Source: an uncultured Prevotella sp. (GTDB lineage: Bacteria > Bacteroidota > Bacteroidia > Bacteroidales > Bacteroidaceae). From it: a stretch of DNA of 51,479 bases. The notes under the pieces were generated by a model. It did no database searches. It had not been told where the DNA came from and saw nothing but the letters and a program-made list of their open reading frames with translations. The number at the start of each line of letters is the position of its first letter. Within the stretch, counting starts at the first letter, position 1. The DNA lies in the NCBI GenBank assembly GCA_900320905.1, contig ONTZ01000019.1, positions 1-51,479 of the forward strand, written 5' to 3'. Both the position numbers and the translations under genes were made by a program. Below are positions 6,973 through 48,419 of the stretch, piece after piece.

Positions 6973-11435
<4,463 letters not shown>

Positions 11436-13407: not shown

Positions 13408-15057
13408 CTATTTTATCTTTTGATAACAGAACTCATCCACATCCACATAGCCGCCGCTCTTTTTCGTGGCATAGTTGAAGATGCCGAACTTCGAACCCAT
13501 GAAGAAACGGCGCCAGTCGAAATTCAGACGGTAGTTCTCCGTGCCAATCCGTTCCCACTGCTCGCCGTCCATGCTGTAATAGAAGTTGGCGCAGTCGGCA
13601 CCGCCATTGCGCCCTTTGACAGGACGGAAGTCAGCATCGATGCGCAACCAGATCTTTTTGGCTTTGGGATAGAGTTGGGATAGTGCGATACCTTTTATCA
13701 TCTTCTCATCGACGTTTGTCACCTCCTTATTGCGATCTGAGAGTTCCACTTTTTGCTCGCTCATCTCTAAGTAGTACTTTTTACCGATGCGTTTGATAGT
13801 CAGGACACCCGAGTCGCTGTTGAAAGCAGCAAAACCAGCACGGTCGCCGTCTTTCATGTTCGAGTAGTCCATTACGATATAAGCACTGCATTGCGGTCCC
13901 TCCATGCGCTGTGTCAACGTGTTCGGGGCGAGATAGAGGGTGTTCACCACACGGTTGGTCTTCAGTCGGAGAAATCCGGGTTGCTCCGTCAGGCTCCAGG
14001 CATTGTCGACGGGGTTGTGGTTCCACTGCCACTGCAAACCGAGTTTCGGCTCAGCAAAATCGTCGCTCTTCACGATGCCCGTCTCAGGCTGACCGCTCAC
14101 AAATGGACGTACCTCATCGGGTACCTTACCATTCTCATCGCCCAGCATCGGCCATCCGTTGATCCAGCGACAAGGCATCACCGTAAGCACTCGACCCACA
14201 CCATTTCGATCTTGGAAGATGATGCCATACCAGTCGCCAGAAGGGGAGTCGACAATCGTTCCCTGAGCCTCGTAGGAGAAACCGCCGAACTCACTCTCCA
14301 GGATTACCTGCTTCTCATAGGGTCCGTGGATATCATCAGCACGATAGCACACTTCACGACGGTGCTTGCCAGGGGCATAGACGTGTGAGATCATCAGGAG
14401 GTAATACTTACCGTCGTGCTTGATCACACGACTGCCCTCCAGAAGTCCCCTCTCATCCTCTTCACGCTGGAAGATATGCATGTGCGTCCCTTCTATCACG
14501 TCAGAGAGATCGGGCTTCAGTTCCATCAGTTCGCCCGTACCATATATTACATATACGCGACCATCGTCGTCGAAGAACAGCGAACAGTCATGGAAATGGC
14601 GCATACGCGACAAGATTTTCCATGGTCCCTCGGCCTTATCGGCAGTAAAGATATAGGTGTCACCCATCGCCCCCTGTTCATTGGGAGCCAGAAGGGCATA
14701 GAATTTTCCATTGTGGTACTTCAGCGAGGTGGCCCACTGTCCACGTCCGTAGACCGTGCCTTGCAGCAGGTCGTACTTCGGCGAGTCGGTCAGTTTATCA
14801 AAGATATAGCCCACCGTCTCCCAGTTCTTCAAGTCTTTCGAGGCCATCACGGGCGCACCCGGCATCAGGTGCATGGTAGTGGACACGAGATAGAAAGTGT
14901 CACCGACGCGAATCACATCGGGATCAGGCACATCAGCCCATAGCATGGGGTTCTGTATTTTCTCTGTGTGTAGCGTCGCGTAGTCGTCAGCCATCACCCC
15001 TGCAGAAGGCAGGAGCAACAGGGCTGTCAACAGCACATTTGATAGTACTTTTCTCAT
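13408..15057 (-). CDS. GH43 beta-xylosidase/arabinofuranosidase
   Basis: A 549-residue secreted protein with a five-bladed GH43 domain (about 35-330) and a C-terminal beta-sandwich (about 350-545, ending GGYVDVDEFCY) typical of GH43 enzymes with a DUF1349-like or C2 domain. Visible catalytic elements are WADVPDPDVIR (Asp base), HFHDCSLFFDDDG (pKa-modulating Asp) and LLEGSRVIK (Glu acid). The signal peptide is MRKVLSN to VMADD. It should release xylose or arabinose from xylo-oligosaccharides. It is the first gene of its unit, with a full promoter 32 bases upstream. Exact specificity cannot be read from sequence. Confidence 0.88.
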   Translation of the reverse strand: MRKVLSNVLLTALLLLPSAGVMADDYATLHTEKIQNPMLWADVPDPDVIRVGDTFYLVSTTMHLMPGAPVMASKDLKNWETVGYIFDKLTDSPKYDLLQGTVYGRGQWATSLKYHNGKFYALLAPNEQGAMGDTYIFTADKAEGPWKILSRMRHFHDCSLFFDDDGRVYVIYGTGELMELKPDLSDVIEGTHMHIFQREEDERGLLEGSRVIKHDGKYYLLMISHVYAPGKHRREVCYRADDIHGPYEKQVILESEFGGFSYEAQGTIVDSPSGDWYGIIFQDRNGVGRVLTVMPCRWINGWPMLGDENGKVPDEVRPFVSGQPETGIVKSDDFAEPKLGLQWQWNHNPVDNAWSLTEQPGFLRLKTNRVVNTLYLAPNTLTQRMEGPQCSAYIVMDYSNMKDGDRAGFAAFNSDSGVLTIKRIGKKYYLEMSEQKVELSDRNKEVTNVDEKMIKGIALSQLYPKAKKIWLRIDADFRPVKGRNGGADCANFYYSMDGEQWERIGTENYRLNFDWRRFFMGSKFGIFNYATKKSGGYVDVDEFCYQKIK

Positions 15058-22521: not shown

Positions 22522-22529
22522 TACCTTTG
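22522..22529 (+). promoter_or_regulatory. -7 element for the CotH protein gene
   Basis: TACCTTTG is a perfect -7 match. The expected transcript start is near 22536, which leaves a leader of about 18 bases before ATG 22554. A TTG codon at 22527 lies inside the box and cannot be the start of a message made from this promoter. Confidence 0.6.
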
Positions 22530-22553
22530 CGGCCAAATTTCATTAAAAGTATT

Positions 22554-33110: not shown

Positions 33111-34496
33111 TCAGACACCTTTTAGGCTGTAAAAACTGAAATACATGGGATCGTCATACTTTGCGGGAGAGGCATCTTGCAGATATTTGCCAGTACCCAC
33201 ATTCAACAGTGAGAAGCCTTTGCCGCTGACATATTCGATCTTCCAGACGGCACCATCCTTGATGTCCTGTCCGTTCTGGTTATTCAGGCCAAGGATGAAA
33301 CTGCACCATCCATCAACAGGCTGGGAGTTCAGATAACCGGGACTACCCCAGATATTGTACTCGCTGCCATCTGGTGTGATGCCCCGCAACAGGTAGTTGC
33401 TGCCAGACTTTTCCAGACGGAAACTGAGTACGGCATTGGTCTTCTGCAGAGCCACGGAGAGGGCATCATAGCCCAGGTTCTGATTGTCGGAACCGAAGAA
33501 GGCCTTATCAGAAGCCTCGTTATAGATAGCCACCGGTGTATTGCCTATCTTATCCAGGCTGGTAAACTTCTTGTCAAGGGCATACGCTGAGGCAGGCTTG
33601 GTAGGCTCGTCTATCTGCGCCTCAATGCCCAACACCTTCAAGGCAGCCTTGGCATAACGCTGCCCCATGATACGATAGCCCTGCGCCGTGAAATGCAGGC
33701 CGTCACCCTTCTGCGGACAATCGGCAGAAGAGATGACATACGAATTGGGAATGACATTGGGCACCTTGGCGATGACGCTGTTATGATGCCAGCAGGCACC
33801 ACCAGCAGCCTGGCTAACCGTCTCACCCACAAAGAGGGGTACTTCCTCGGGATTGAGGTTCAGGTCATTCATCAGACGGTCGTAGATGAGTTTCACCTTC
33901 TTCGGCCAGTCCTGCTGACCATTATTGGTCTCACCCTGGTGCAGCAGAATACCTTTGATGACACCCGTCTCCTGGGCAATCTTCGCCATATCAACCAGAC
34001 GCTTGTACGGGTCATTATTATAGGCTTTGAAATAGTTCTTCAACCAGTCGGCAGCCGTCTTGATATAAGCAGGAGTCTCTTCCTGTATAAATCCCTTGAT
34101 ATCTGTACCACCGAGAGCCACATCCACGACACCCACCTTCACATTCTCAGGCAGGTTCGCCACCATCGTACGTCCGAAATAGTCGGCCATACCCAGTCCT
34201 GTACCCTGACGGACCAGAGGAGGTGTGGCGGTATACCACTCCCCCATCTTACGCTTGGGGCTGGAAAAATCCACACAGGCCAGCATCTGGAAACGCGGAT
34301 CCACCGTCTTGTCCTGTGCCTCTGGGGTGGCATTACCCTCCATGTTCGACTGTCCGAAACAGAGATAGACGTAGAACTGAGGCTCATCCTTCGGATCCTC
34401 TTCCTGCTCTTCGGGGTTCACGGGGAAGTCTTCATTAGAACAGGCGGTAAAGCCCATTGCCAATGTCACTGCAAATAAAAGAAATAGTTTTTTCAT
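33111..34496 (-). CDS. CE6-type acetyl esterase lipoprotein
   Basis: A 461-residue lipoprotein (MGFTACSNED) with an SGNH esterase domain at about 45-300: [44 protein letters not shown] and GDGLHFTAQGYR. These blocks match the N-terminal domain of the CE6-CE1 protein at 9288-11318, so the two are paralogues. A C-terminal domain of about 150 residues (KFTSLDKIGNTPVAIYNEA to YSLKGV) is not recognised and may be a ligand-binding beta domain. Expected to remove acetyl groups from xylan fragments. It lies 28 bases after fucP and 6 bases before GH3. Confidence 0.85.
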   Translation of the reverse strand: MKKLFLLFAVTLAMGFTACSNEDFPVNPEEQEEDPKDEPQFYVYLCFGQSNMEGNATPEAQDKTVDPRFQMLACVDFSSPKRKMGEWYTATPPLVRQGTGLGMADYFGRTMVANLPENVKVGVVDVALGGTDIKGFIQEETPAYIKTAADWLKNYFKAYNNDPYKRLVDMAKIAQETGVIKGILLHQGETNNGQQDWPKKVKLIYDRLMNDLNLNPEEVPLFVGETVSQAAGGACWHHNSVIAKVPNVIPNSYVISSADCPQKGDGLHFTAQGYRIMGQRYAKAALKVLGIEAQIDEPTKPASAYALDKKFTSLDKIGNTPVAIYNEASDKAFFGSDNQNLGYDALSVALQKTNAVLSFRLEKSGSNYLLRGITPDGSEYNIWGSPGYLNSQPVDGWCSFILGLNNQNGQDIKDGAVWKIEYVSGKGFSLLNVGTGKYLQDASPAKYDDPMYFSFYSLKGV

Positions 34497-34524: not shown

Positions 34525-35802
34525 TTATCTTTTTGCCGTCCGCATGCCATAGATGAACACCACAAGGAAACAGAACAACGGCAGGACGAAAGAAAAGTTC
34601 GTGGCGGGGAAATCGCCGAATACCGTACCCTGGTCGATGATCATCGCCTGCAACGGCGGTAGTACCGAGCCACCCAGGATAGCCATGATCAGACCGGCAG
34701 CACCGAACTTCGCATCGTCGCCCATCCCGTCGAGGGCAATGCCGTAGATAGTGGGGAACATCAGTGACATACAACCACTGACGCACACCAGACAATAGAG
34801 CCCCATGCGGTTCTGGAAGATGATGACACCTAATGTGAAGATCATCGCTAAAACGGCGAAGGCTGCCAACAGCCTGGCGGGCTTCACCCAGCGCATGAGG
34901 AAGGTGGCGATGAAGCGCGAACAGATAAAGAAAAGCATCGCATAGATATTAAACTGCTGCGACAGAACCTCTGCCGCCTGCTCCTCCATACCCTCGGCCA
35001 TAAACACTCGCGTACCATATTGTATAATAAAGGTCCAGCACATGATCTGTGCACCCACGTAGAAGAACTGGGCCACCACCCCTTCACAATAGTGTGGCAG
35101 AGAGAAGATACGTTTCAGGGTAACCATGAAATGGATGTCGTGGCTCTGGTCGGCGTTCTTCGGCATCTTCGTGAAGAGGATGATGAGGAACATCACCACA
35201 ATCACCAGTCCGATGGCGAGGTAGGGTGAGATGAGCACATCGAGGTCGGCATTCTTAATCGCCTCAAACTGCGCATCGTCCAACAGCGCCCTCTCATCAC
35301 TGCTCATCGGGTTGAGTTTCGCCTGGATGAAATTCATCGCCACGAACATACCGATGATGGAGCCACAGGGGTTGAAGCACTGCGCCAGGTTCAGACGGCG
35401 CGTGGCGGTCTCCGGCTCTCCCATCGAGAGGATATAAGGGTTACAAGAGGTCTCCAGGAACGACAGTCCACAGGTCATGATGAAATACGACATCAGGAAA
35501 CAGCCGTAGAGTCCGATGCTCTTCGAGGGGAAGAACAGCAGGGCACCGGCAGCATAGAGCCCCAGTCCCATCAGCACACCCGCCTTGTAACTATATTTAC
35601 GGATAAAGATAGCAGCAGGCAGGGCCATACAGAAATAGCCGCCATAGAAGGCCATCTGCACCAGTGCCCCGTCGGTGACACTCATACGGAAGATCTTCGA
35701 GAAGGCCTTCACCATCGGGTTCGTGATATCGTTGGCAAAGCCCCACAGGGCAAAGCAGAACGTCACGAGGATAAACGGAACGAGGTAATTATTCTTTTTC
35801 AT
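34525..35802 (-). CDS. fucP: FucP-type sugar:proton symporter
   Basis: A 425-residue major-facilitator protein with about twelve hydrophobic segments and the FucP-type start (YLVPFILVTFCFALWGFAND). Other family features are FLETSCNPYILSMG and RRLNLAQCFNPCGSIIGM. E. coli FucP takes up L-fucose and also accepts L-galactose and D-arabinose. Here it is placed between an acetyl esterase and a dehydrogenase/lactonase pair matching an L-galactose pathway, so L-galactose is the substrate I would test first. It should sit in the inner membrane. It starts 31 bases after the dehydrogenase stop. Confidence 0.85.
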   Translation of the reverse strand: MKKNNYLVPFILVTFCFALWGFANDITNPMVKAFSKIFRMSVTDGALVQMAFYGGYFCMALPAAIFIRKYSYKAGVLMGLGLYAAGALLFFPSKSIGLYGCFLMSYFIMTCGLSFLETSCNPYILSMGEPETATRRLNLAQCFNPCGSIIGMFVAMNFIQAKLNPMSSDERALLDDAQFEAIKNADLDVLISPYLAIGLVIVVMFLIILFTKMPKNADQSHDIHFMVTLKRIFSLPHYCEGVVAQFFYVGAQIMCWTFIIQYGTRVFMAEGMEEQAAEVLSQQFNIYAMLFFICSRFIATFLMRWVKPARLLAAFAVLAMIFTLGVIIFQNRMGLYCLVCVSGCMSLMFPTIYGIALDGMGDDAKFGAAGLIMAILGGSVLPPLQAMIIDQGTVFGDFPATNFSFVLPLFCFLVVFIYGMRTAKR

Positions 35803-35821
35803 TTGCTTGTCCAGTAATCAC

Positions 35822-35840
35822 AATTACTAATTACTAATTA
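35822..35840. repeat. Heptamer tandem repeat at the dehydrogenase stop codon
   Basis: AATTACT AATTACT AATTA overlaps the TAG stop of the dehydrogenase gene and lies in the spacer before fucP. It is one of several seven-base tandem repeats in the window. Confidence 0.6.
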
Positions 35841-36853
35841 AACCTGACGAGGATACGGAACACCTTGCCGGGATTCTCCGCCCACTGCTGCATGGCCCAG
35901 GGAGCCTGCTCAGGCGATACCTCGTTACTAATCAGACGATCTACGGGACACGTCCCTCTCTCCAGATAATGTATCACAGCCCGGAAGTCACTGGGCTGGG
36001 CATTGCGCGAGCCGCGGATGTCGAGTTCCTTCTGCACGAAATACTTCGTCTGGAACGACACCTCTGTCTTGGCATAGCCGATACAGACCACCCGACCCGT
36101 AAAGGCCACCTCGTTGACAGCCATATTATAAGTGACAGGACTGCCCACTGCCTCAATCATCACATCAGGCCCGAAGCCACCCGTCATCTCCTGTAGTCGG
36201 GCATGCACATCCTCTGTCTTCGTGTTGATGGCATAGGTGGCACCCATCTCCTTCGCCAGTGCCAGTTTCTCATCGTCTATGTCAGCGGCAATGACGGTGG
36301 CACCACGCAGGGCCGAGCGAACGATGGCACCCATACCCACCATGCCACAGCCAATCACCACCACCGTGTCGATATCCGTCACCTGTGCACGGTTCACGGC
36401 GTGGAAACCCACACTCATCGGTTCTATCAGGGCACAGGTACGCGGATCGAGTCCTCCGGCAGGGATCACTTTCTCCCAGGGCAGGGCGATAAACTCCCGC
36501 ATGGCGCCGTTGCGTTGCACACCGAGGGTCTCGTTGTGCTCACAGGCATTCACCCGTCCGTTGCGACACGAGGCGCACTTGCCACAGTTCGTATAGGGAT
36601 TACAGGTCACCACCATCCCGGGCTTCAAGATCTCAGGCACATCGGCACCCACCTTTTCTATCACAGCACCAACCTCATGACCCGGTATCACCGGCATCTT
36701 CACCATCGGGTTCCTGCCGAGCCACGTGTTCAGGTCGGAACCACAGAACCCCACATAGGCGAGGCGCAGCAGCACCTCGTTGGCCTTCAATGCCTGTTCG
36801 GCCACACTCACTATTTCCATCTGGCGCTCACCAGAAATCTGAATTGCTTTCAT
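35834..36853 (-). CDS. Zn-dependent alcohol dehydrogenase, probable L-galactonate 5-dehydrogenase
   Basis: A 339-residue medium-chain dehydrogenase. The catalytic zinc ligands are in GFCGSDLN (Cys near 37) and PGHEVGA. The structural zinc site is the four-Cys NCGKCASCRNGRVNACEH. VVVIGCGMVGMGAI is the NAD-binding Rossmann loop. Its ATG overlaps the end of the lactonase gene by 4 bases (ATGA), and fucP follows. In Bacteroides vulgatus an enzyme of this class oxidises L-galactonate at C5 to D-tagaturonate, downstream of a dehydrogenase and a lactonase of the same types seen here. The enzyme class is certain; the substrate is inferred from that parallel. Confidence 0.82.
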   Translation of the reverse strand: MKAIQISGERQMEIVSVAEQALKANEVLLRLAYVGFCGSDLNTWLGRNPMVKMPVIPGHEVGAVIEKVGADVPEILKPGMVVTCNPYTNCGKCASCRNGRVNACEHNETLGVQRNGAMREFIALPWEKVIPAGGLDPRTCALIEPMSVGFHAVNRAQVTDIDTVVVIGCGMVGMGAIVRSALRGATVIAADIDDEKLALAKEMGATYAINTKTEDVHARLQEMTGGFGPDVMIEAVGSPVTYNMAVNEVAFTGRVVCIGYAKTEVSFQTKYFVQKELDIRGSRNAQPSDFRAVIHYLERGTCPVDRLISNEVSPEQAPWAMQQWAENPGKVFRILVRFN

Positions 36854-37764
36854 TCGCTCATATTCTTTATATATGGTAATACTTTCAAATCACGGAAACC
36901 GAAGAACCGTCGGGCATTCTCGCCTAAAAACAGCCGTTTCTCCCCGTCCGTCATCTCACTGCTCTTCACCACAAAGTCGTACGACATCTTATAGGTGATA
37001 GCGGTGATGGTACGGGGGTAGTCCGAGCCCCACATCAGTTTCTCCATCCCCACGGCGTCAGCCGCCTCCCTGATGGCGCGGATGGCTGAGGGGAAGGGAT
37101 AAAACTCATCGTTGAAGAGCCACGTGATACCGCCGCTCTCCACATAGACATTCTCGTGACGGGCCAACCGGATCTGACTCATCCAGTTCTCTCGCGTCAC
37201 CATCCCGAAATGCCCGATGGCGATTTTCAGGTTAGGACACTCTTGGATAATCTCCTCCATCTGTCCCACCTGGGCATCACCATCGGCCAGTTCGATACCG
37301 AGCAGGATGCCACGCTCTTCCATCAGGTGCATCATCTGCATCATCTCGTCGTTGAGGAACTGCCTCGGCAGCCGGGCGGCAGGCACCTTGATACCCTTGA
37401 AGCACTGCATCAGTCCGTCAGCCACACGCAGGAAGCCCGGCACACGGTAGTCGGCCATCCCGAAACAGAAGAAGCGGTCGGGATACTGCCGCTGCACCTC
37501 GGAAAGATAGTCGTTCTGCAGGCCGTCGATAAACTCCTGCGTCACCACTGCCGCCGCCACCTGGGCATAGTCCATATTTGAGAGGAAGCGCTCCGCCGTG
37601 TTCTGGCCGTCAGTCATAAAGGGCGGTAACATCTGTCGCTCCTCACCGAAAAACAGGCTTCTGCTCCGGTTGGGTTCCAACTGACAGATGCGTTGTCCGT
37701 CCACCGTCGTGTCTTGCGTCAGCCACAGATGGCTGTGCGCGTCAATGATATGAGGTTGGTTCAT
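36850..37764 (-). CDS. Amidohydrolase-family sugar lactonase, probable L-galactono/L-fucono-1,5-lactonase
   Basis: A 304-residue cytoplasmic protein without signal peptide. IIDAHSHLW at the start and MLMWGSDYPRTI-like sequence near residue 245 (KLMWGSDYP) mark an amidohydrolase-2/cog3618 barrel. IAIGHFGMV supplies the internal histidine. Cog3618 includes L-fucono- and L-galactono-1,5-lactonases. It is the first gene of a six-gene operon (lactonase, Zn-dehydrogenase, fucP, CE6, GH3, esterase) with a full promoter 27 bases upstream. The lactonase role is supported by the neighbours rather than by unique residues. Confidence 0.78.
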   Translation of the reverse strand: MNQPHIIDAHSHLWLTQDTTVDGQRICQLEPNRSRSLFFGEERQMLPPFMTDGQNTAERFLSNMDYAQVAAAVVTQEFIDGLQNDYLSEVQRQYPDRFFCFGMADYRVPGFLRVADGLMQCFKGIKVPAARLPRQFLNDEMMQMMHLMEERGILLGIELADGDAQVGQMEEIIQECPNLKIAIGHFGMVTRENWMSQIRLARHENVYVESGGITWLFNDEFYPFPSAIRAIREAADAVGMEKLMWGSDYPRTITAITYKMSYDFVVKSSEMTDGEKRLFLGENARRFFGFRDLKVLPYIKNMSE

Positions 37765-37790
37765 TTTGCAGAGTTATTCAATATCGGGTG

Positions 37791-37822
37791 CAAAGATATA
37801 TATATTTTTTTAAACAACCAAA
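37791..37822 (-). promoter_or_regulatory. Promoter for the lactonase-fucP-CE6-GH3 operon
   Basis: On the minus strand TTTG at 37822-37819 lies 20 bases upstream of TATCTTTG at 37798-37791. ATG 37764 is about 27 bases further. Confidence 0.68.
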
Positions 37823-37869
37823 AAAAACATGCTTACAAGGTGACACTCTGTGTGCAATGATAGTAGTAA

Positions 37870-38649
37870 TCATCTCTTCGTAATTTGCCAGGAGATGCCC
37901 GCAGCAATGCTCCAGAAACTTTTGAAGTCGTTCAGGTAGATGTCAGTGTTCACGTCTATCTGCACCCGACGTGACAACTGCCAGATAATTCCCAGTTCCA
38001 TCCAGTTATCATGGCTGTCGGGGTATTTGTAGTTGTACTCTTCGACCATCAGTTGCCATCGGTCGTTGAGAGTAAATCCCAGATTGGCCCCGTAGAAGAT
38101 GATGGGCTTTTCAGAATCGAACCATGTCAGATCTCCTTCGTAGCCAAGGGAGAGCCATGGCGTCAGTTGGTTCTGACAGAGAAGACCCATCTGGCCACTC
38201 CAATTGTTGGGCATATTGTTATTGCTGTTGCTTGGTATGATGACATTGCCTAACAATGAAACGGCGGGCACGAACTTCCATCCATCAAAAAGTTTGGCCT
38301 TCGCACCGATGGCCACATTGTCCGATCCGCTATAATCGAAAATATCACCGCCCTCATTGTTCCAGTCGCCCTGCAGGCGCAGTTCAGCATAGTCAGAGAT
38401 TCCAAAACGAAGGAGTGTGGTGTTCAACGTCCAAATGTATGACTTAGTACCATTCTGTCTGACTTGTTGATAGCCCATTCCCATTTCCCACTGCAATCGT
38501 CCTTTAGGCAGCACATCAGGACCTGTGATTACTCCTGGCCGGTCAGCCGTGAATCCTGCCTCCTCGCTCTGGGCCAAGACCGAGAGTGGAAGAAAGGATA
38601 ATAATATAGCGATAACTCCCCAAAAAGCCAAATATAATTCTTTAGTCAT
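37870..38649 (-). CDS. Outer-membrane beta-barrel protein, transporter family (PF13557-like)
   Basis: A 259-residue secreted protein. The signal peptide (AFWGVIAILLSFLPLSVLAQ) is followed by GFTADRPGV, a sequence typical of small barrel proteins annotated as phenol-degradation-type transporters. The rest alternates hydrophobic and polar residues in short strands ending in W/Y/F (LQWEMGMGYQQV, AELRLQGDW, AGISWQI), as expected for a 10-12 stranded barrel. I chose ATG 38649 because the -7 box at 38672-38679 would fall inside a frame begun at 38715. The cargo is unknown. It is upstream of, and in the same direction as, the lactonase operon, which has its own promoter. Confidence 0.72.
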   Translation of the reverse strand: MTKELYLAFWGVIAILLSFLPLSVLAQSEEAGFTADRPGVITGPDVLPKGRLQWEMGMGYQQVRQNGTKSYIWTLNTTLLRFGISDYAELRLQGDWNNEGGDIFDYSGSDNVAIGAKAKLFDGWKFVPAVSLLGNVIIPSNSNNNMPNNWSGQMGLLCQNQLTPWLSLGYEGDLTWFDSEKPIIFYGANLGFTLNDRWQLMVEEYNYKYPDSHDNWMELGIIWQLSRRVQIDVNTDIYLNDFKSFWSIAAGISWQITKR

Positions 38650-38671
38650 GTAACAGTCAATATTGATGTTG

Positions 38672-38679
38672 CAAAGATA
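38672..38679 (-). promoter_or_regulatory. -7 element for the beta-barrel gene
   Basis: The minus strand carries TATCTTTG, a perfect -7 match about 22 bases before ATG 38649. No clear -33 partner. Confidence 0.5.
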
Positions 38680-38808
38680 CAAAATAATGCCAAGATTGTT
38701 CATAAGACAGCACATTTTTACACATTATTTAATAAAAGGGATTTGGGTGACTGTCTTCGTTTTTTAAAGATTTTCTGATTTTTTTACACGAATCTCGAAA
38801 AAAAACTG

Positions 38809-38816
38809 TATATTTG
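38809..38816 (+). promoter_or_regulatory. -7 element immediately before the sensor pair
   Basis: TATATTTG is a -7 match ending only 8 bases before ATG 38825. The transcript start should fall at about 38820-38825, so the message would be leaderless or nearly so. A T-rich stretch, but no exact TTTG, lies at the upstream distance. Confidence 0.5.
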
Positions 38817-38824
38817 CCGCTGAT

Positions 38825-40198
38825 ATGTCTAAAGTTACTACGTTTATCGCCAAGACCCTGTCGTTTAGGCTCAGTCTGAGAATCATCGCCGCCTTGGCGC
38901 TGTTGCTCATGCTGGCGCTGGTGACGATGTTCTATTTCTCGCGTAAGGCTGTGAGGGAAGAAGCCCTGCAGAATGCCGGGCAGACCCTGGAGGCGATGGT
39001 GGAAAACATTGACAATGTGCTGCTGAGCGTGGAGCAGGCAGCAGGAAACATCTACTGGAAGATGTTAGGCAAAGCCAACAAGCCAGAACTCATGGAAATG
39101 TATGCCCACAAACTCATGGAGTGCAATCCCTACATTATGAACAGCCGGATTATCTGGGATGTGGACAGCAATAAGGTGCAGGCCGTCGCCCAGTGGACGA
39201 CACCACCCAAGGTGGACAGCGACAAGGGCGATGCCGTGGTGACCTTCAGCCTGCCTTTCTACGACAAAGAGCAGAAGATGAACGTGCTGGCCATCGACGT
39301 GTCGCTGGCACTGCTGTCAAAGATCGTGCTCGAAGAGAAACCCTCGCCCAATTCCACCTGTGCCCTGTTAGCAAAGGACGGCACGGTGATTGTCTATAAC
39401 AAAAGCGACATGCTAGACCAGAACCTGATTACACTGGCAAAGAAATACTACCACCCTTCGGTGATTGAGGCAGCGGAGGCGATGCTGGCGGGTGAGACAG
39501 GCTATAAGAAAATGATACTGCACGGGAAGAACTGCTACGCCTTCTACAAACCCTTCAAGCAGGCCGAGGTGACGGGACGTGCCATGACAGACCTGGGATG
39601 GAGCGCAGGTATCATCTATCCAGAAGAGGATATCTTCGGCAGTTACAACCGGCTGGTATGGACGGTGCTTATCATCGCCGTTGTGGGACTGGGACTGCTG
39701 TTTGTGCTCTGCCGGCTCTTCATCCACCACCAACTGCTGCCCCTCAGACGACTCGGAAGGTCGGCACAACTCATTGCCGAGGGACAATACGTGGAGCCTA
39801 TACCCGAAAGCAAGCACCTCGATGAGGTGGGACGCCTGCAAAACCATTTCCACGCCATGCAGCAGTCGCTGGCCCAGCACATGCAGGAACTGCAACAGTT
39901 GTCCGACACCCTGAAGGAGCGAGGCGAGGTGCTGCAGGATGCCTACGAGCAGGCGCAGGGTGCCGACAGGATCAAGACGAACTTCCTTTATAACATGTCG
40001 GATCAGATGAAGGCACCCGTCAGCAGCATCCTGCAAAGTGTCAGGACCATCAGTCAGCACGGCAGTGAACTGACGGACGAGGACACCAACAAGATCGTAG
40101 ATGATATCATGCGGCGCGGAGAAAAGGTGACGGCGTTGTTGAACCAGTTGATTGCAGACTCGGAGAAACTGGAAGTGAGAAGTGAAAAAAAAGAGTGA
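38825..40198 (+). CDS. Membrane sensor with degenerate histidine kinase domain (pseudokinase)
   Basis: A 457-residue sensor. A first membrane span (about 16-38), an extracytoplasmic Cache-like domain (about 39-275), a second span (about 276-300), a HAMP linker (LLPLRRLGRSAQLIAEGQY), a coiled coil and a truncated dimerisation domain. The block that normally carries the phosphorylated histidine reads LYNMSDQMKAPVSSIL, with Asp (near 392) where SHE or SHQ is expected. The protein ends without any ATP-binding domain. It overlaps the downstream full kinase by one base, and the two share architecture, which suggests duplication followed by loss of catalysis. A partner or decoy role in a heterodimer is inferred. 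Confidence 0.8.
   Translation: MSKVTTFIAKTLSFRLSLRIIAALALLLMLALVTMFYFSRKAVREEALQNAGQTLEAMVENIDNVLLSVEQAAGNIYWKMLGKANKPELMEMYAHKLMECNPYIMNSRIIWDVDSNKVQAVAQWTTPPKVDSDKGDAVVTFSLPFYDKEQKMNVLAIDVSLALLSKIVLEEKPSPNSTCALLAKDGTVIVYNKSDMLDQNLITLAKKYYHPSVIEAAEAMLAGETGYKKMILHGKNCYAFYKPFKQAEVTGRAMTDLGWSAGIIYPEEDIFGSYNRLVWTVLIIAVVGLGLLFVLCRLFIHHQLLPLRRLGRSAQLIAEGQYVEPIPESKHLDEVGRLQNHFHAMQQSLAQHMQELQQLSDTLKERGEVLQDAYEQAQGADRIKTNFLYNMSDQMKAPVSSILQSVRTISQHGSELTDEDTNKIVDDIMRRGEKVTALLNQLIADSEKLEVRSEKKE
40172..40186. repeat. GAAGTGA heptamer repeat at the pseudokinase C-terminus
   Basis: GAAGTGA GAAGTGA encodes part of the C-terminal LEVRSEKKE. The same heptamer forms a longer array at 44467-44526. Confidence 0.5.
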
Positions 40199-42108
40199 TG
40201 CGTAGAATCATACAATATATCAGACGGTCGCTTTCCCGGAAACTCAGTCTGGGAATCCTGCTGATGGCCATACCCATCTTCATGCTGTCGATAGGCATCC
40301 TGTTCCAGCAGTCGAAAGAGCAGTTGAAGAAGGAGGCGACGAAGCATGCCAGCAGTGTGCTCAACACCACGATGCAGCACATTGACCGGTACATGAACAT
40401 CGTGGAGACCGCTACAGACATCAACGACTGGGAGGTGACTGCCCACCTGGATCCCGACTCAATACTGGCCTACTCACGCTCCATCGTCATGCTCAACGGG
40501 CAGATCGACGGCTGCTCCATCAGTGCTGAGCCGAACACCTTCCCAAAATATGGCAGGAACTTCTCGGCCTATACCGTCAGGGAGGGAGACAGCGTGACCA
40601 CCGTCATAGAAGAACCGTATGAGTACTTCGAAAAAGTATGGTACAAGACACCGCACCTGTATGGCAAGCCCTGCTGGGTGGTGTACTACGACGAGAGCGA
40701 CTCACTGGAACTGACCCTCGACGGGATGATTGCCTCGTACGGCAAACCCCTCTACGATGCCGACAAGCATTTCGTGGGTGTCATCTCCTCCGACCTCTCA
40801 CTGATACGCCTCTCGAAGATCATCACGGCAGAGGTGCCCTACCCGGACTCTTACTTCGTGATGACTGGCGAGGAAGGACGCTACTTCGTGCATCCTGACT
40901 CCACACAACTCTTCACGCATACGATCTTCAGCGATGCTGACCCGCAGCAGAATGCCGACATCTTTGCCCTGGGACACGAGATGACCACAGGCAAGGAGGG
41001 CAGTATGAGCGTCAGGATCGACGGCAAGCCATGCCTGGTGTGCTACCAGCCCGTGCCTGGCACACCGTGGAGCCTCGCACTCGTCTGTCCCGAATGGAGC
41101 ATCCTACGGGGCTATCACCGTATGAACTTCATCATCGGCCCGCTCATCATCCTCGGGCTGCTGTTCATCCTGCTGTATTGCAGCGTCACCGTAACACATG
41201 CCATCCACCCGCTCAACCGACTGACAAGCAAGGTGCAGCGTATTGCCGAGGGACACTATGACGAGCGCATCAAACAGAGTAAATACAACGATGTGGTCGG
41301 ACGCCTGCAAAACACCTTCGCCACCATGCAGGAGTCACTGAGCCAGCATGTGGCCGACATCAAGCAGATGAACGAAGAGACGGCACGGCGCAACGAGGAA
41401 TTGGTGCGTGCCAGTGAGATGGCGAAGGAAGCCGACCGGCAGAAGACGCTGTTTATCCAGAACGTGTCGCACCAGATCCGTACGCCCCTGAACATCATCA
41501 TGGGCTTTGCACAGGTGATGAAAGAAAGTAAGGGTACACTGCCGGAAGAGGAAACCAAGAGCATCACGGACATGATGAAGCATAATGCCATGATGCTCCA
41601 CCGTATGGCGCTGATGCTCTTCGACAGTTCGGCCAGAGGCACCATCGAGGAAATATATGCGGACAAGAACGATGAGGTGATCTGTAATGAGGTGGCCCGC
41701 AAGAGCATCGCCGCCATTCAGGAGCAATATCCGGAGATACCTATGCGCTTCTCGTCGGACGTGCCCGACGATTTCTGCATCACCACCAATCGCACCTACC
41801 TGAGAAACAGCATCCGTGAGATACTCTACAATGCCGTCAAATACTCCGACGGACAACACATATCCTTGCACGTCAGTGAGGCGGGGTCGAAGATCCGCTT
41901 TATCTTAGAGGATACGGGCCCGGGCATCGCCGAGGAAGAATGTAGTCACCTGTTTGAGATGTTCACGAAGGTGAACGACCTCTCAGAAGGTCTCGGACTA
42001 GGACTGCCATTAGCCAGACGCCATATCCGAAACCTCGGCGGCGACCTCCTCCTCGACCTCGACTACCACAAGGGCTGCCGCTTCATCATCGAAATACCGA
42101 AGGTATAG
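40198..42108 (+). CDS. Membrane sensor histidine kinase
   Basis: A 636-residue kinase from ATG 40198; GTG 40195 would add one residue and give a 4-base overlap with the upstream gene. Order: span (about 16-36), Cache-like extracytoplasmic domain (about 37-300), span (about 305-330), HAMP (HPLNRLTSKVQRIAEGHY), coiled coil, dimerisation domain with phosphoacceptor His in IQNVSHQIRTPLN near 425, and ATPase domain with REILYNAVKYSDG (N box), LEDTGPGIAEEE (G1) and GLGLGLPLARRH (G2). All catalytic boxes are intact. No response regulator gene is adjacent and there is no fused receiver domain, so the target lies elsewhere. The sensed ligand may be a sugar from the neighbouring pathways, which is only inference. 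Confidence 0.88.
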   Translation: MRRIIQYIRRSLSRKLSLGILLMAIPIFMLSIGILFQQSKEQLKKEATKHASSVLNTTMQHIDRYMNIVETATDINDWEVTAHLDPDSILAYSRSIVMLNGQIDGCSISAEPNTFPKYGRNFSAYTVREGDSVTTVIEEPYEYFEKVWYKTPHLYGKPCWVVYYDESDSLELTLDGMIASYGKPLYDADKHFVGVISSDLSLIRLSKIITAEVPYPDSYFVMTGEEGRYFVHPDSTQLFTHTIFSDADPQQNADIFALGHEMTTGKEGSMSVRIDGKPCLVCYQPVPGTPWSLALVCPEWSILRGYHRMNFIIGPLIILGLLFILLYCSVTVTHAIHPLNRLTSKVQRIAEGHYDERIKQSKYNDVVGRLQNTFATMQESLSQHVADIKQMNEETARRNEELVRASEMAKEADRQKTLFIQNVSHQIRTPLNIIMGFAQVMKESKGTLPEEETKSITDMMKHNAMMLHRMALMLFDSSARGTIEEIYADKNDEVICNEVARKSIAAIQEQYPEIPMRFSSDVPDDFCITTNRTYLRNSIREILYNAVKYSDGQHISLHVSEAGSKIRFILEDTGPGIAEEECSHLFEMFTKVNDLSEGLGLGLPLARRHIRNLGGDLLLDLDYHKGCRFIIEIPKV

Positions 42109-42111
42109 GCA

Positions 42112-43062
42112 TCAGGAGTTCTTCCACCTGACGAACATCTGGTCGCCGATGATCTCCTGCACCTCACCCACCAACTGCTCATCCATCGGCTCGTTCACGT
42201 AGTCAATGTTTTTCAGCACATTGTCAGGATTGGCACTGCTGAAAAGCGTCGTGGCGATACGCGGGTTCATACTGGTAGAGAACTGGATGGCGAGTTTCTC
42301 GATGGGATAGCCTTTCTCCTGACAATAGGCTGCCGCCTTGGCACAGGCATTCTTCAAGTCGCGGCCTGCGGGATGCCACATCGGGGCACCACGCTGCGAC
42401 AGCAGACCCATCGACAGGGGCGAGGCATTGATGACCCCCACCCCATGCTGCTCGAAGAAACCGAGATAGTCGGCAAGCAGGGTGTCGTTAAGACTATAGT
42501 GACAGAAGTTCAGGATACTCTCCACCACGCCGTCGTCGCAGTGCTCGATGACCCACTTCAGGTTCTCTGGCTGCAGGTCGGTGATACCCACATGACCTAC
42601 CACGCCCTTCTCCCGCAGTGCCACGAGGGCAGGCAGTGTCTCGTCGACAATCTTCTGCAAGCCGCCTTCCATAGCCCCCTGAAACTCGATGTCGTGTACG
42701 TTGATGAGGTCGATATAGTCCACGTTCAGGCGTTCCATACTCTCATAGACACTCTCCGTGGCCCGTTTCGCGCTGTAGTCCCACGTGTTCACGCCATCTT
42801 TGCCGTAGCGCCCCACCTTCGTAGAGAGGTAGTACTTGTCACGGGGAATCTCTTTCAGGGCCTTGCCCAAGACGGTCTCTGCCTTCAGATGACCATAGTA
42901 GGGCGACACGTCGATGAAGTTGATGCCGTTGTCAACGGCGACATGGACGGCACGGATGCCTTCCTCTTCGCGGATGCTATGGAAGACGCCTCCCAACGAG
43001 GAGGCACCGAAGGCGAGATTGGCCACCCGCATGCCAGTCTTTCCTATTTCATTATATACCAT
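42112..43062 (-). CDS. Aldo-keto reductase, probable L-galactose/L-fucose dehydrogenase
   Basis: A 316-residue cytoplasmic aldo-keto reductase. MVYNEIGKTGMRVANLAFG, SSLGGVF and FIDVSPYYGHLKAETVLG resemble plant L-galactose dehydrogenase and bacterial L-fucose dehydrogenases. The catalytic set is visible: Asp in FIDVSPYYG, Tyr in the same block, Lys in YLSTKVGRY and His in INVHDIEF. A longer frame reaches 43227, but its first 55 residues are Arg/Cys-rich read-through from the GH8 gene, so I chose ATG 43062. It starts 2 bases after the GH8 stop and thus belongs to the GH43-GH8 operon. With the lactonase and Zn-dehydrogenase it supplies the first step of an L-galactose pathway. Confidence 0.82.
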   Translation of the reverse strand: MVYNEIGKTGMRVANLAFGASSLGGVFHSIREEEGIRAVHVAVDNGINFIDVSPYYGHLKAETVLGKALKEIPRDKYYLSTKVGRYGKDGVNTWDYSAKRATESVYESMERLNVDYIDLINVHDIEFQGAMEGGLQKIVDETLPALVALREKGVVGHVGITDLQPENLKWVIEHCDDGVVESILNFCHYSLNDTLLADYLGFFEQHGVGVINASPLSMGLLSQRGAPMWHPAGRDLKNACAKAAAYCQEKGYPIEKLAIQFSTSMNPRIATTLFSSANPDNVLKNIDYVNEPMDEQLVGEVQEIIGDQMFVRWKNS

Positions 43063-44466: not shown

Positions 44467-44526
44467 CACTTTTCACAATTTGCACTTCTCACTTTTCACT
44501 TCTCACTTCTAAACTTCTCACTTCTT
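44467..44526. repeat. GAAGTGA-type heptamer repeat in the GH43-GH8 spacer
   Basis: On the minus strand the unit GAAGTGA or GAAAAGTGA recurs about five times, interrupted once by GAAGTTTA. The GH43 stop codon TGA (44518-44520) is part of the array. No promoter or terminator is evident inside it. Confidence 0.65.
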
Positions 44527-47406
44527 AACCGTCCACCAGTCCAGACGCACATCGCCACTGACATTGCTGAAACAGAGATAGAGGTCGTGGACACCTGCGG
44601 CACTCTTGATCTTACCGGTGAAGAGACGGTATTTCTCCACGTTGCCGGTCTTACCAATGGTGCAGGAACCAACCACCTGACCGTCTTTGCTGTCGAGACG
44701 CAGGCTGACGGTGCAGCCACCGGTAGAGGCTGCCATGACACAGAACTGCTTGGCACCCTGTGCGAAGTCCACACCACGCAGACGGATATACTCACCGTCG
44801 TCGATGTCGAAGATATACATATTCTTCTTACCTGTCGAGGCGGGCATGTCTGCCACGACACCGGTGTTCTCGATACCCATCTTGGCACTCTTCAGTCCGA
44901 AGCCCCATGCCATCGTCTCAGCCTCCACACGCTGGTAGGGATTGAGCCACTGCAACTGCTTCATGGGTTCCAGATCCAACCAGTAGGGTGTCTCGCGGAT
45001 GGTGCCGTCGGCATTGTAGAATATCTCTGCCCCGTTCACGCTGCGACGCTCATGGTGTACGAAGGTCTCCAGGTGCATCAGGTCGTAGTCCTGCCCGAAG
45101 AGATACGAATGGCCCTTGAAGTCGGCGATGCCGGGGTGATTGCCCCTGTCGCGCTGGGTGGGTGCCATCAGATAGTTCTGTTCTTTCCAGGGACCCAACG
45201 GCGAATCGCTCATCGCATAGCCCAGGCCCTCAGGACAACAGGTAGATGCAAAACCCATATAGTAGTGCCCGTTGCGCTTATAGAACCACGGTCCCTCCTG
45301 ATAGTGCTTCACTGCCCAGGTGGCCTTCTCGCTGAACGGCACCCGGAGGTTGATCTTTGCGCCCTCCTCCTTCACAGGACGCATCATACCGTCCTTGGGA
45401 TTGAGCACGTAGATGTCGCCCTTGGTGGATATCATGTCCTCATTCAACTTGACACAATAGGTCTGTGGATTACCCCAGAACATATAGGCCTGTCCGTCGT
45501 CGTCGATCCAGACGGAGGGGTCGATGTCGTCCCAGTGCTCCTGCTGCCATACCAGCGGCTTACCCAGAGGATCCTTGAAGGGTCCGTGGGGCGAGTCCGC
45601 CACCAGCACCCCGATGCCGTGTCCGTGCAACGGGGCATAGAGGTAGTACTTGCCGTTGCGTGCGATGGTCTGGATGGCCCAGGCACCGTTCTCCCTGCTG
45701 CGCCAGGAGAACTCCTTCAACGAAGCCACAGCGCCGTGCTCCGTCCAGTTCACCATATCGGTGGTGCTCCACAGCAGCCAGTCGTACATGAAGAAACCGG
45801 CAGAACTCTTCTCGTTGGCATCGGGGATATCCTCTGGCGAGGCATCGTGCGAGGTATATAAGAATAAGGTGTCGCCCACCACCAGCGGTGAGGGGTCGGC
45901 GGTGTATTTCGTCTGGAAGAGGGGCATATTCACCTGTTCCAGTCCGCGCATCTCCCACCAGTCGAAGTTGAAGAGTTTCGGTCCCTTGCGCCCCTTGAAG
46001 ACAAAGTAGAGGTCTGCGGTCTCTGGCAGGGCAATACCGGAGAGGGTGCGTTTAGGCGCATCCAGTTCTTTCAGGGTAGAATAGTCTAAGTCGAGGGTGA
46101 GGGTCTGCCATTTCTCCCAGCCACCGGTGCCAGGCACATTGACTACACCGAGGCATCTTCCGCCGACGCTGTCAAGACGTATCTCTATCTGTCCGCCCCG
46201 CAGACCAGAAGCCACACGGGCCTTGAAGACACGGGGATATTTGTTGTCAAACGCCACATTCTGCAGTTTGATATAGTCGCCGTTGTGGATATCGGTCACA
46301 TAGACACCCACCTCATCGTTCTGCTCGGTCTTGATGCCCTTCGAGAAAGCCATCGTCTCTGCCTCCACCTTACGGTAGGGGTCGAACTTACCCACAGGCT
46401 TCACCCCCTCGTCGGTAGGCATGATGGTGGGGAAGGAACCGTCGGCATTATATTTGAATTCCTCCACAGCCACACTGCGTCCGAAACCTCCGCCATTGGG
46501 CAGTTTCCCCGTGTGGTAGAAGAAATAACTATGTCCCTTATAGTCCGCTACGCCGCAATGGTTCGTAAACGACTTCGTGTCGCAGAGCGGCATGATCTCA
46601 CCGGCGTAGGTCCAGGGGCCTAAGGGCGACGGTGCCGTGCTGTAAGAGATATGCTCCGGCACGCCCCCGGCGGCATAAAGCAGAAAATAAGAGTCTCCAG
46701 GCCTCCACGACTCCTGACTCCTGACTCCTGACTCCTGTCTCCTCTTCATCAGCCACGGGCCTTCCACATACGAGTCCTTGTATTCCTTGCCCTGCACACG
46801 CTTGTCCCTCAAAGGTGAGCCAAAGCCCTCCTCCGTCATGTCGAGCATACCGAGTTCGCCGGAATAGGAGATCATGTCGCGGTTCAGTTTCAGGTAATAC
46901 ACACGGGGGTTACCCCACATCAGCCATGCCTGTCCGTCATCGTCGATCATCACCGTCGGGTCGATATGATCCCACGAACCGTTCTCGAAGAGCGGTTTCC
47001 CGATGGCATCCTTGAAAGGTCCTGTAGGACTGTCACCCACTGCCACGCCGATGGCCATACCACCTGACAGTTTGGAGTGGGCACAGATATACCAATAGAA
47101 CTTGCCGTCGCGTTCGATGGTCTGCGAGGCCCAGGCACGGTCATCGGCCCACGAGAAACTCTCGAGGGCGAGCGGGGAACCGTGATCCTGCCAGTTCACC
47201 ATGTCCTGCGTCGAATAGACGCGCCACTCCTGCATCCAGAAGAAGTCGGCACCGTCTTCGTCGTGGCCTGTATAGACATACATCGTACAATCGTGTACCA
47301 TCGGCGCGGGGTCGCTCGTACACCATGTTTGCACAAAGGGATTCTGCGCGCTGGCAGACAGAGCCATTGCCGTAGCAACGGCGATAAAAGCATCTCTTAG
47401 TTTCAT
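44518..47406 (-). CDS. Double GH43 protein with two CBM6-like modules
   Basis: A 962-residue secreted protein with two complete GH43-CBM6 units. Unit 1 (about 20-345, CBM about 350-490): CTSDPAPMVHDC, DHIDPTVMIDDD and the acid Glu in YVEGPWLMKR. Unit 2 (about 500-815, CBM about 825-962): TADPSPLVVGD, DDIDPSVWIDDD and YQEGPWFYKR. Each CBM has the VEAETMA start. Both active sites look intact, so it probably acts as beta-xylosidase and/or arabinofuranosidase. Unit 1 carries an insertion of about 13 residues (RQESGVRSQESW) at 222-234, encoded by a heptamer repeat and absent from unit 2, directly after the catalytic acid strand. Signal peptide ends ASAQ. First gene of an operon with GH8 and the aldo-keto reductase. 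Confidence 0.88.
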   Translation of the reverse strand: MKLRDAFIAVATAMALSASAQNPFVQTWCTSDPAPMVHDCTMYVYTGHDEDGADFFWMQEWRVYSTQDMVNWQDHGSPLALESFSWADDRAWASQTIERDGKFYWYICAHSKLSGGMAIGVAVGDSPTGPFKDAIGKPLFENGSWDHIDPTVMIDDDGQAWLMWGNPRVYYLKLNRDMISYSGELGMLDMTEEGFGSPLRDKRVQGKEYKDSYVEGPWLMKRRQESGVRSQESWRPGDSYFLLYAAGGVPEHISYSTAPSPLGPWTYAGEIMPLCDTKSFTNHCGVADYKGHSYFFYHTGKLPNGGGFGRSVAVEEFKYNADGSFPTIMPTDEGVKPVGKFDPYRKVEAETMAFSKGIKTEQNDEVGVYVTDIHNGDYIKLQNVAFDNKYPRVFKARVASGLRGGQIEIRLDSVGGRCLGVVNVPGTGGWEKWQTLTLDLDYSTLKELDAPKRTLSGIALPETADLYFVFKGRKGPKLFNFDWWEMRGLEQVNMPLFQTKYTADPSPLVVGDTLFLYTSHDASPEDIPDANEKSSAGFFMYDWLLWSTTDMVNWTEHGAVASLKEFSWRSRENGAWAIQTIARNGKYYLYAPLHGHGIGVLVADSPHGPFKDPLGKPLVWQQEHWDDIDPSVWIDDDGQAYMFWGNPQTYCVKLNEDMISTKGDIYVLNPKDGMMRPVKEEGAKINLRVPFSEKATWAVKHYQEGPWFYKRNGHYYMGFASTCCPEGLGYAMSDSPLGPWKEQNYLMAPTQRDRGNHPGIADFKGHSYLFGQDYDLMHLETFVHHERRSVNGAEIFYNADGTIRETPYWLDLEPMKQLQWLNPYQRVEAETMAWGFGLKSAKMGIENTGVVADMPASTGKKNMYIFDIDDGEYIRLRGVDFAQGAKQFCVMAASTGGCTVSLRLDSKDGQVVGSCTIGKTGNVEKYRLFTGKIKSAAGVHDLYLCFSNVSGDVRLDWWTVKK
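46707..46742. repeat. In-frame GGAGTCA heptamer repeat inside GH43 unit 1
   Basis: On the minus strand about four tandem copies of a seven-base unit (CAGGAGT, with flanking CAGGAGA variants) lie within the coding sequence. A gain or loss of one unit would shift the frame and end the protein early; three units would keep it in frame. Confidence 0.8.
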
Positions 47407-48357: not shown

Positions 48358-48419
48358 CAAAATAATTAGGTAAAGATTACGATACTAAAATATATTTAAT
48401 AACCCAAATGATTTCAAGT

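Follow-up and report, generated by a model that had tools for sequence, protein, structure and literature searches.

The stretch of DNA considered here, 51,479 nucleotides from an uncultured Prevotella sp. (contig ONTZ01000019.1 of assembly GCA_900320905.1; hereafter the window), carries an apparent L-galactose pathway among genes for xylan-degrading enzymes, and the locus raises the question of whether the two belong together in function. In corn-type xylan, side chains are capped by L-galactose, a rare sugar, and an earlier note on this DNA had proposed that the removal of these side chains is coupled here to catabolism of the sugar released. That reading is supported: with a probability of roughly 82%, L-galactose catabolism is coupled to complex-xylan breakdown, by a pathway whose genes fall into two apparent transcription units. 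The draft genome to which the window belongs, as contig 43, comprises 3.2 Mb in 118 contigs and is 81.9% complete. The named records nearest to its predicted lactonase belong to six ruminant-gut Prevotella or Prevotellaceae assemblies (91 to 97%), and the host is probably a rumen Prevotella.

The four pathway genes are found in frames that match the positions assigned to them in the earlier note:

42112..43062, minus strand: predicted L-galactose dehydrogenase (aldo-keto reductase), step 1; PF00248 and score-nearest structures
36850..37764, minus strand: probable L-galactono-lactonase (amidohydrolase, COG3618-like), step 2; PF04909
35834..36853, minus strand: probable L-galactonate dehydrogenase (Zn-dependent MDR), step 3, to D-tagaturonate; PF00107/PF08240 and zinc motifs
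34525..35802, minus strand: FucP-type sugar:H+ symporter, probable L-galactose uptake; TIGR00885

The first start codon in the open reading frame (ORF) of the reductase is a GTG at 43227, and the ATG at 43062, 2 bases behind a GH8 gene, fits the position given. The reductase does resemble L-galactose dehydrogenase, since the five best solved sequences (7lh6, 9w6y, 8scc, 7smi, and 7ezi) all bear that name. Scores against solved L-galactose dehydrogenases run from 487.1 bits (7lh6) down to 253, with the next reductase at 91.8, a placement by score and not by tree. The motifs FIDVSPYYG at 49, STKVGRY at 80, and NVHDIE at 121 are of aldo-keto reductase type, as read against D-Y-K-H, which we take to be the catalytic tetrad of that family. 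NAD(P)-dependent oxidation of L-galactose is the predicted reaction of this enzyme. The symporter passes TIGR00885 (611.5 bits, cut-off 280.4) and matches 3o7q, the L-fucose-proton symporter. The Zn-dehydrogenase may work like an LgoD-type enzyme and is not filed as a member of that family: it scores 174.5 bits against the cut-off of 376 of NF007489 (PRK10083), which we take to represent LgoD, the L-galactonate dehydrogenase. The lactonase has an amidohydrolase fold like that of COG3618 structures, and the fold search did not separate lactonases from other amidohydrolases. No protein named from Bacteroides vulgatus appears among the best 120 of 7999 homologues in each search, at 87 to 100% identity.

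Whether these genes form a true operon was judged from relatives of the locus, the best 80 of 544 confirmed loci, which were fetched by the lactonase and in which a gene was counted as present at >=45% identity over half of the query. A homologue of the dehydrogenase is found in 75 of the 80, the Zn-dehydrogenase in 77, and all three enzymes in 74, while the dehydrogenase lies no more than 400 bases upstream of the lactonase in 72. The presence of all three enzymes in 74 loci, together with this adjacency, indicates a real operon rather than a chance association. An L-galactonate dehydrogenase of the B. vulgatus kind is presumably encoded in an operon with L-galactose dehydrogenase and lactonase, and this grouping is seen in the same 74 loci. 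In the window the operon is cut in two by a pair of sensor-kinase genes, as it is in L003, L005, and L006. The dehydrogenase is missing from the available stretch of five loci (L004, L007, L008, L013, and L032). Three of these (L004, L007, and L008) are among the six nearest loci; in L008 the stretch before the lactonase is just 219 bases long, and in L004 and L007 other genes occupy that side. D-tagaturonate is supported as the product by the place of the tagaturonate reductase gene uxaB, which comes next after the Zn-dehydrogenase gene in L081 and L143 and, with a single ORF between, in L156.

The two parts of the divided operon are each joined to xylan enzymes, as can be observed in the order of the genes:

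44518..47406, minus strand: GH43-GH43-CBM6 fusion, head of the dehydrogenase unit; PF04616/PF03422
43065..44447, minus strand: GH8, ending 2 bases before the L-galactose dehydrogenase gene; PF01270, partial match
38825..42108, plus strand: two overlapping Cache-HAMP sensor kinase genes; Pfam
37791..37822, minus strand: Bacteroidales-type promoter-like site, TTTG-N20-TAnnTTTG, ending 26 bases before the lactonase start
33111..34496, minus strand: CE6-type acetyl esterase (SASA), lactonase unit; PF03629
30777..33104, minus strand: GH3, lactonase unit; PF00933/PF01915
29778..30737, minus strand: BD-FAE type esterase, lactonase unit; PF20434, 246 bits

In the first unit, 70 bases separate GH43-GH43 from GH8 and 2 bases separate GH8 from the L-galactose dehydrogenase; the second comprises the lactonase, Zn-dehydrogenase, FucP, CE6, GH3, and esterase, with gaps of -4, 31, 28, 6, and 39 bases. 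The xylan-enzyme neighbours named in the earlier note are therefore all found, the GH8 by a partial match. Its further statement, that they are co-transcribed with the pathway genes, holds as far as shared direction and gaps of -4 to 70 bases are concerned; judged by this spacing and direction, each unit would be transcribed as one. The motif TTTG-N20-TAnnTTTG, which we take to be the Bacteroidales promoter motif, occurs five times in the window, compared with a mean of 0.32 (maximum 3) in 100 first-order Markov sequences, and the motif scan of the window gave no such site before the GH43-GH43 gene. The CE6-type esterase matches the CE6-CE1 protein of the Bacteroides xylanisolvens XB1A locus described below at 57% over part of its length. 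The best NCBIfam model for the GH3, beta-xylosidase/alpha-L-arabinosidase, gives 469.5 bits, under the cut-off of 1050. For the first sensor kinase, the HATPase domain was unmatched in the Pfam scan. A PF13557 protein is coded at 37870-38715 between the sensor kinases and the lactonase, and the matching gap of L005 is too small for it.

The strongest support for the coupling is comparative: complex-xylan genes follow the same operon in B. xylanisolvens XB1A, and the same holds for 5 of another 20 loci from the genus Bacteroides, some of the 20 being shortened by contig ends. In XB1A the operon runs dehydrogenase, lactonase, MFS transporter, Zn-dehydrogenase and is preceded by a divergent LacI-type gene. 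Behind it in the same direction follow GH43, GH3, GH43, GH31, GH97, and GH43, the first GH43 beginning 290 bases behind the Zn-dehydrogenase; further on, where the genes were scanned in part, come a SusD-type gene, GH10, GH5, CE6-CE1, and GH43, with HTCS, GH95, and GH115 on the other strand. This stretch fits polysaccharide utilization locus (PUL) 43, matched by families and order and not by locus tags, which is described as holding GH3, GH5, GH10, GH43, GH95, GH115, CE1-CE6, and HTCS (available part of PMC4855328). The list given there is without GH31 or GH97, both of which PUL-XylL of Bacteroides ovatus has (available part of PMC4491172). Counterparts of the XB1A locus are also found elsewhere in the window:

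13408..15057, minus strand: GH43, 54% over 99% to the GH43 that comes first after the L-galactose operon in XB1A
11436..13403, minus strand: GH97, 66% to the GH97 of the XB1A xylan locus
9288..11381, minus strand: CE6-CE1 esterase, 54% to the CE6-CE1 of the XB1A xylan locus

The first half of the GH43-GH43 protein matches one GH43 of the XB1A locus at 60% and the second half another at 56%, so that it looks like a fusion of two GH43 enzymes of an XB1A-type xylan locus. By position, the halves would be of the BACOVA_03436 and BACOVA_03424 types, for which limited activity, on corn xylan only, is reported in the available part of PMC4491172. That text treats L-galactose solely as a freed sugar, and the main text of the XB1A paper (PMC4855328) mentions no galactose, aldo, fucose, permease, or dehydrogenase. 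Judging by title and opening of the abstract, none of the CC-licensed PubMed Central papers listed in the literature searches links the catabolism of L-galactose or L-galactonate with a xylan locus of Bacteroides or Prevotella.

A probable answer to how the sugar is freed lies outside the window. The scan of the window covered 29 of 63 listed ORFs of >=150 amino acids, including every ORF of >=457 amino acids, the list being made up of frames lying wholly within the window; as the earlier note had it, no GH95 is among the 29. The genome holds two GH95 genes. The one on contig 57 scores 1015 bits against 4ufc and 650 against the next GH95 structure (7kmq), and it is the best match in this genome to the XB1A GH95 (58%); the other is nearest 2rdy. 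The 4ufc structure is that of a B. ovatus alpha-L-galactosidase (available part of PMC8245568), and the B. ovatus GH95 freed only L-galactose from corn xylan (available part of PMC4491172). The contig 57 protein is therefore predicted, by its nearest structure, to be an alpha-L-galactosidase of the BACOVA_03438 type. Its gene lies between a GH31, 2 bases away, and a GH3, 226 bases further, a gap that may give the GH3 its own promoter. The GH3 passes the curated xylan 1,4-beta-xylosidase model (1395.9 against a cut-off of 1250), and the GH31, whose nearest solved structure is the alpha-xylosidase BoGH31A (458 bits), matches the GH31 of the XB1A xylan locus at 53%. These two matches led us to set aside a reading of GH31-GH95-GH3 as a xyloglucan operon, for which the nearness of the GH31 to BoGH31A would speak. 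A Thr equivalent to Thr370 was considered as a mark of specificity and rejected as not diagnostic: it is carried by the contig 57 GH95, by the second GH95, and by an L-fucose-specific enzyme (available part of PMC8245568).

Across 151 genomes of the window's family, taken from a larger group, the dehydrogenase occurs in 72 and a GH95 of >=700 bits in 76; 61 have both, 11 the dehydrogenase only, 15 the GH95 only, and 64 neither. Fisher's test gives an odds ratio of 23.7 (p 1.1e-16), a value that ignores kinship and uses a 700-bit line set post hoc. The contig 57 GH95 is matched at 1e-60 or better in 123 of the 151.

Enzymes for later steps of the route, among them the tagaturonate reductase that the earlier note had suggested looking for, are encoded in the genome as well. 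The tagaturonate reductase UxaB is found on contig 47 at 621.4 bits (cut-off 359), with UxuA and a second reductase as neighbours, and the altronate dehydratase UxaA and KDPG aldolase lie on contig 62 about 3 kb apart, so that UxaB, UxaA, and KDPG aldolase are all present for the route from tagaturonate to KDPG. The proposed process would then run as follows. The contig 57 GH95, whose gene has those of an alpha-xylosidase-like GH31 and a xylan beta-xylosidase GH3 as neighbours, would free L-galactose from side chains on complex (corn-type) glucuronoarabinoxylan, and the FucP-like symporter would take the sugar up. The aldo-keto reductase would oxidise it to L-galactono-lactone, which the amidohydrolase would open to L-galactonate, and the Zn-dehydrogenase would convert this to D-tagaturonate. 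UxaB and UxaA would carry D-tagaturonate to 2-keto-3-deoxygluconate, which KDPG aldolase would cleave after phosphorylation. With the operon split, the dehydrogenase gene follows GH43-GH43 of the complex-xylan kind and GH8, and the other three genes lead the CE6-GH3-esterase unit. Since the L-galactose genes are placed in two xylan units, the cell probably induces release of the sugar together with its use. Of this account, the gene families, the synteny, and the presence of UxaB, UxaA, and KDPG aldolase are observed, and the substrates, co-transcription, and regulation are predicted.

Several observations weigh against this coupling. CE6 neighbours the operon in 6 of the 80 loci and GH43-GH43 and GH8 in 3, and the xylan set was seen in none of the 37 other family loci with a called dehydrogenase ORF (40 were fetched); from these three counts, xylan is not its general partner. 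It is not the sole setting either, as elsewhere GH29, GH97, or L-fucose isomerase lie alongside. The GH31 and GH3 of the window match their XB1A counterparts at just 33% and 31%. Neither SusC nor SusD is among the scanned ORFs, which hence show no canonical PUL with SusC/SusD beside enzymes. Both the Zn-dehydrogenase and the lactonase fall below every curated family cut-off in the profile search. The best curated model for the former is scyllo-inosose 3-dehydrogenase (177.5 bits against 450) and its nearest solved chain RspB, and for the latter the nearest solved chain by sequence is a probable 2-pyrone-4,6-dicarboxylate hydrolase (29 bits). Finally, 11 of the 72 genomes with the dehydrogenase are without a GH95 of >=700 bits, and the association takes no account of relatedness.

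Three other explanations draw on part of this evidence. The pathway might be fed mainly by rhamnogalacturonan II or xyloglucan, with the xylan neighbours a product of chance rearrangement. The sensor-kinase split confined to three of the 80 loci would suit this, as would the BoGH31A likeness noted above. In some Prevotella relatives (L037, L044, L063, and L068), moreover, the operon has for neighbours various members of a set that we take to be rhamnogalacturonan-II-like, namely GH141, GH127, rhamnosidase-like, GH31, and SSF symporter genes; not every locus has all of them. However, these genes are on the opposite strand in all but one (L063) of the four loci, the nearest GH95 adjoins a curated xylan beta-xylosidase, and the same operon precedes a complex-xylan locus in Bacteroides, which makes this source unlikely. 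Oxidative use of L-fucose, in which L-fucose would enter by FucP and be turned into L-fuconate by the dehydrogenase and lactonase, is a very unlikely account. The permease model that FucP passes is one for L-fucose, genes of GH29, the alpha-L-fucosidase family, are in the fetched stretch of 13 of the 37 family loci and 2 of the 20 Bacteroides-genus loci, and an L-fucose isomerase lies in or by the operon in L021, L023, L027, L028, L136, L149, and L153. Yet the reductase is nearest by score to L-galactose dehydrogenases, the lactonase reaches 22.3 bits against the cut-off of 400 of the L-fucono-1,5-lactonase model NF052480, tagaturonate is suggested by the nearness of uxaB to the Zn-dehydrogenase gene in three relatives, and no L-fucose isomerase was found in this genome, at 81.9% completeness. 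GH29 also contains an exo-alpha-L-galactosidase (available part of PMC12316285), so that GH29 neighbours fit L-fucose or L-galactose alike.

The remaining explanation concerns release alone, in which a GH97 of the window and not GH95 would free L-galactose, as the earlier note had allowed besides a source elsewhere in the genome. A GH97 does stand behind the operon in 22 of the 80 loci (17 like the gene at 16803-20156 and 5 like that at 11436-13403), after the transporter or the Zn-dehydrogenase, or after the lactonase in L013 and L032. Nevertheless, the GH97 of the B. ovatus complex-xylan locus acts on alpha-D-galactoside, in contrast to the GH95 of that locus (available part of PMC4491172), and a GH95 is present in all 31 tested genomes with the lactonase locus, a weak point since GH95 is common. 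With a GH95 of the right type on another contig, no GH97 is needed; a source elsewhere is what was found, and the GH97 was set aside as a highly improbable candidate. The coupling of L-galactose use to corn-type xylan is supported by the GH95 beside a xylan beta-xylosidase and by the same operon before complex-xylan genes in Bacteroides.

Other settings of the operon bear on its history. Two protein clusters recur among the 80 loci: one, with GH141 as its scanned member, in 16 loci, and another, represented in the scan by L-fucose isomerase, in 4; in L021, L023, L027, and L028 a gene of the latter cluster is within the operon, ahead of FucP. The GH29 genes of L125, L126, L127, L129, L135, L136, and L163 match the GH29 of L082 at 66-68%; directly behind or near the operon, these are candidate alpha-L-galactosidases. 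It could be, at about even odds, that the three- to four-gene operon is a movable module attached more than once to loci that free L-galactose: before a complex-xylan locus in one branch of Bacteroides, split through xylan units in the rumen Prevotella branch, and beside GH29 or GH97 elsewhere. If so, its neighbourhood would predict new alpha-L-galactosidases, for example the neighbouring GH29 group, and L-galactose would be a sugar that xylan degraders keep and burn.

Further genes of the window include a GH97 and type-B carboxylesterase fusion (16803-20156) adjoining a GH31, which matches the GH97 behind the operon in 17 of the 80 loci, e.g. of Xylanibacter ruminicola, at 65-72%. A protein of 1206 amino acids (22527-26147) has lamin-tail and CotH kinase domains, and CotH-type genes are also near the operon in L013, L126, and L127. 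An open frame of 657 amino acids on the plus strand (48408-50381) has no Pfam match.

The pathway itself is already known, and its genomic setting with complex-xylan enzymes is partly new. It offers a testable fate for the L-galactose freed by complex-xylan loci, which is probably kept and burned by the degrader, and points to a catabolic operon adjoining a studied type of Bacteroides xylan locus. The operon may also serve as a genomic marker for alpha-L-galactosidases and for users of corn-type xylan in rumen and gut, and the coupling is directly testable in cultured Bacteroides.

In comparison with known systems, the L-galactose pathway of Phocaeicola (Bacteroides) vulgatus (BVU_0219 and BVU_0222; Hobbs 2014, as cited in the available part of PMC12632266) is alike by description, with an L-galactose dehydrogenase of the aldo-keto reductase type, a separate L-galactonate dehydrogenase, and D-tagaturonate as an intermediate, whereas in the window sensor kinases interrupt the operon and its parts adjoin xylan enzymes. 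The lguABCDEF genes of Luteolibacter, which encode a dual L-glucose/L-galactose pathway (same source), share the route through L-galactose dehydrogenase, L-galactonate dehydrogenase, tagaturonate reductase, and altronate dehydratase; in contrast to the present genome, the genes for the last two enzymes are inside the cluster, and a link with xylan enzymes is unmentioned in the part of the source available. PUL-XylL of B. ovatus and PUL 43 of XB1A are also alike, in that relatives of the XB1A GH43s, GH97, CE6-CE1, GH31, GH3, and GH95 are present in this genome at 53 to 66%. Here, however, the enzyme set is distributed over at least two contigs and several units, the ORFs scanned in the window include no Sus gene, and the L-galactose operon, which in XB1A adjoins the xylan locus, is divided between two xylan units.

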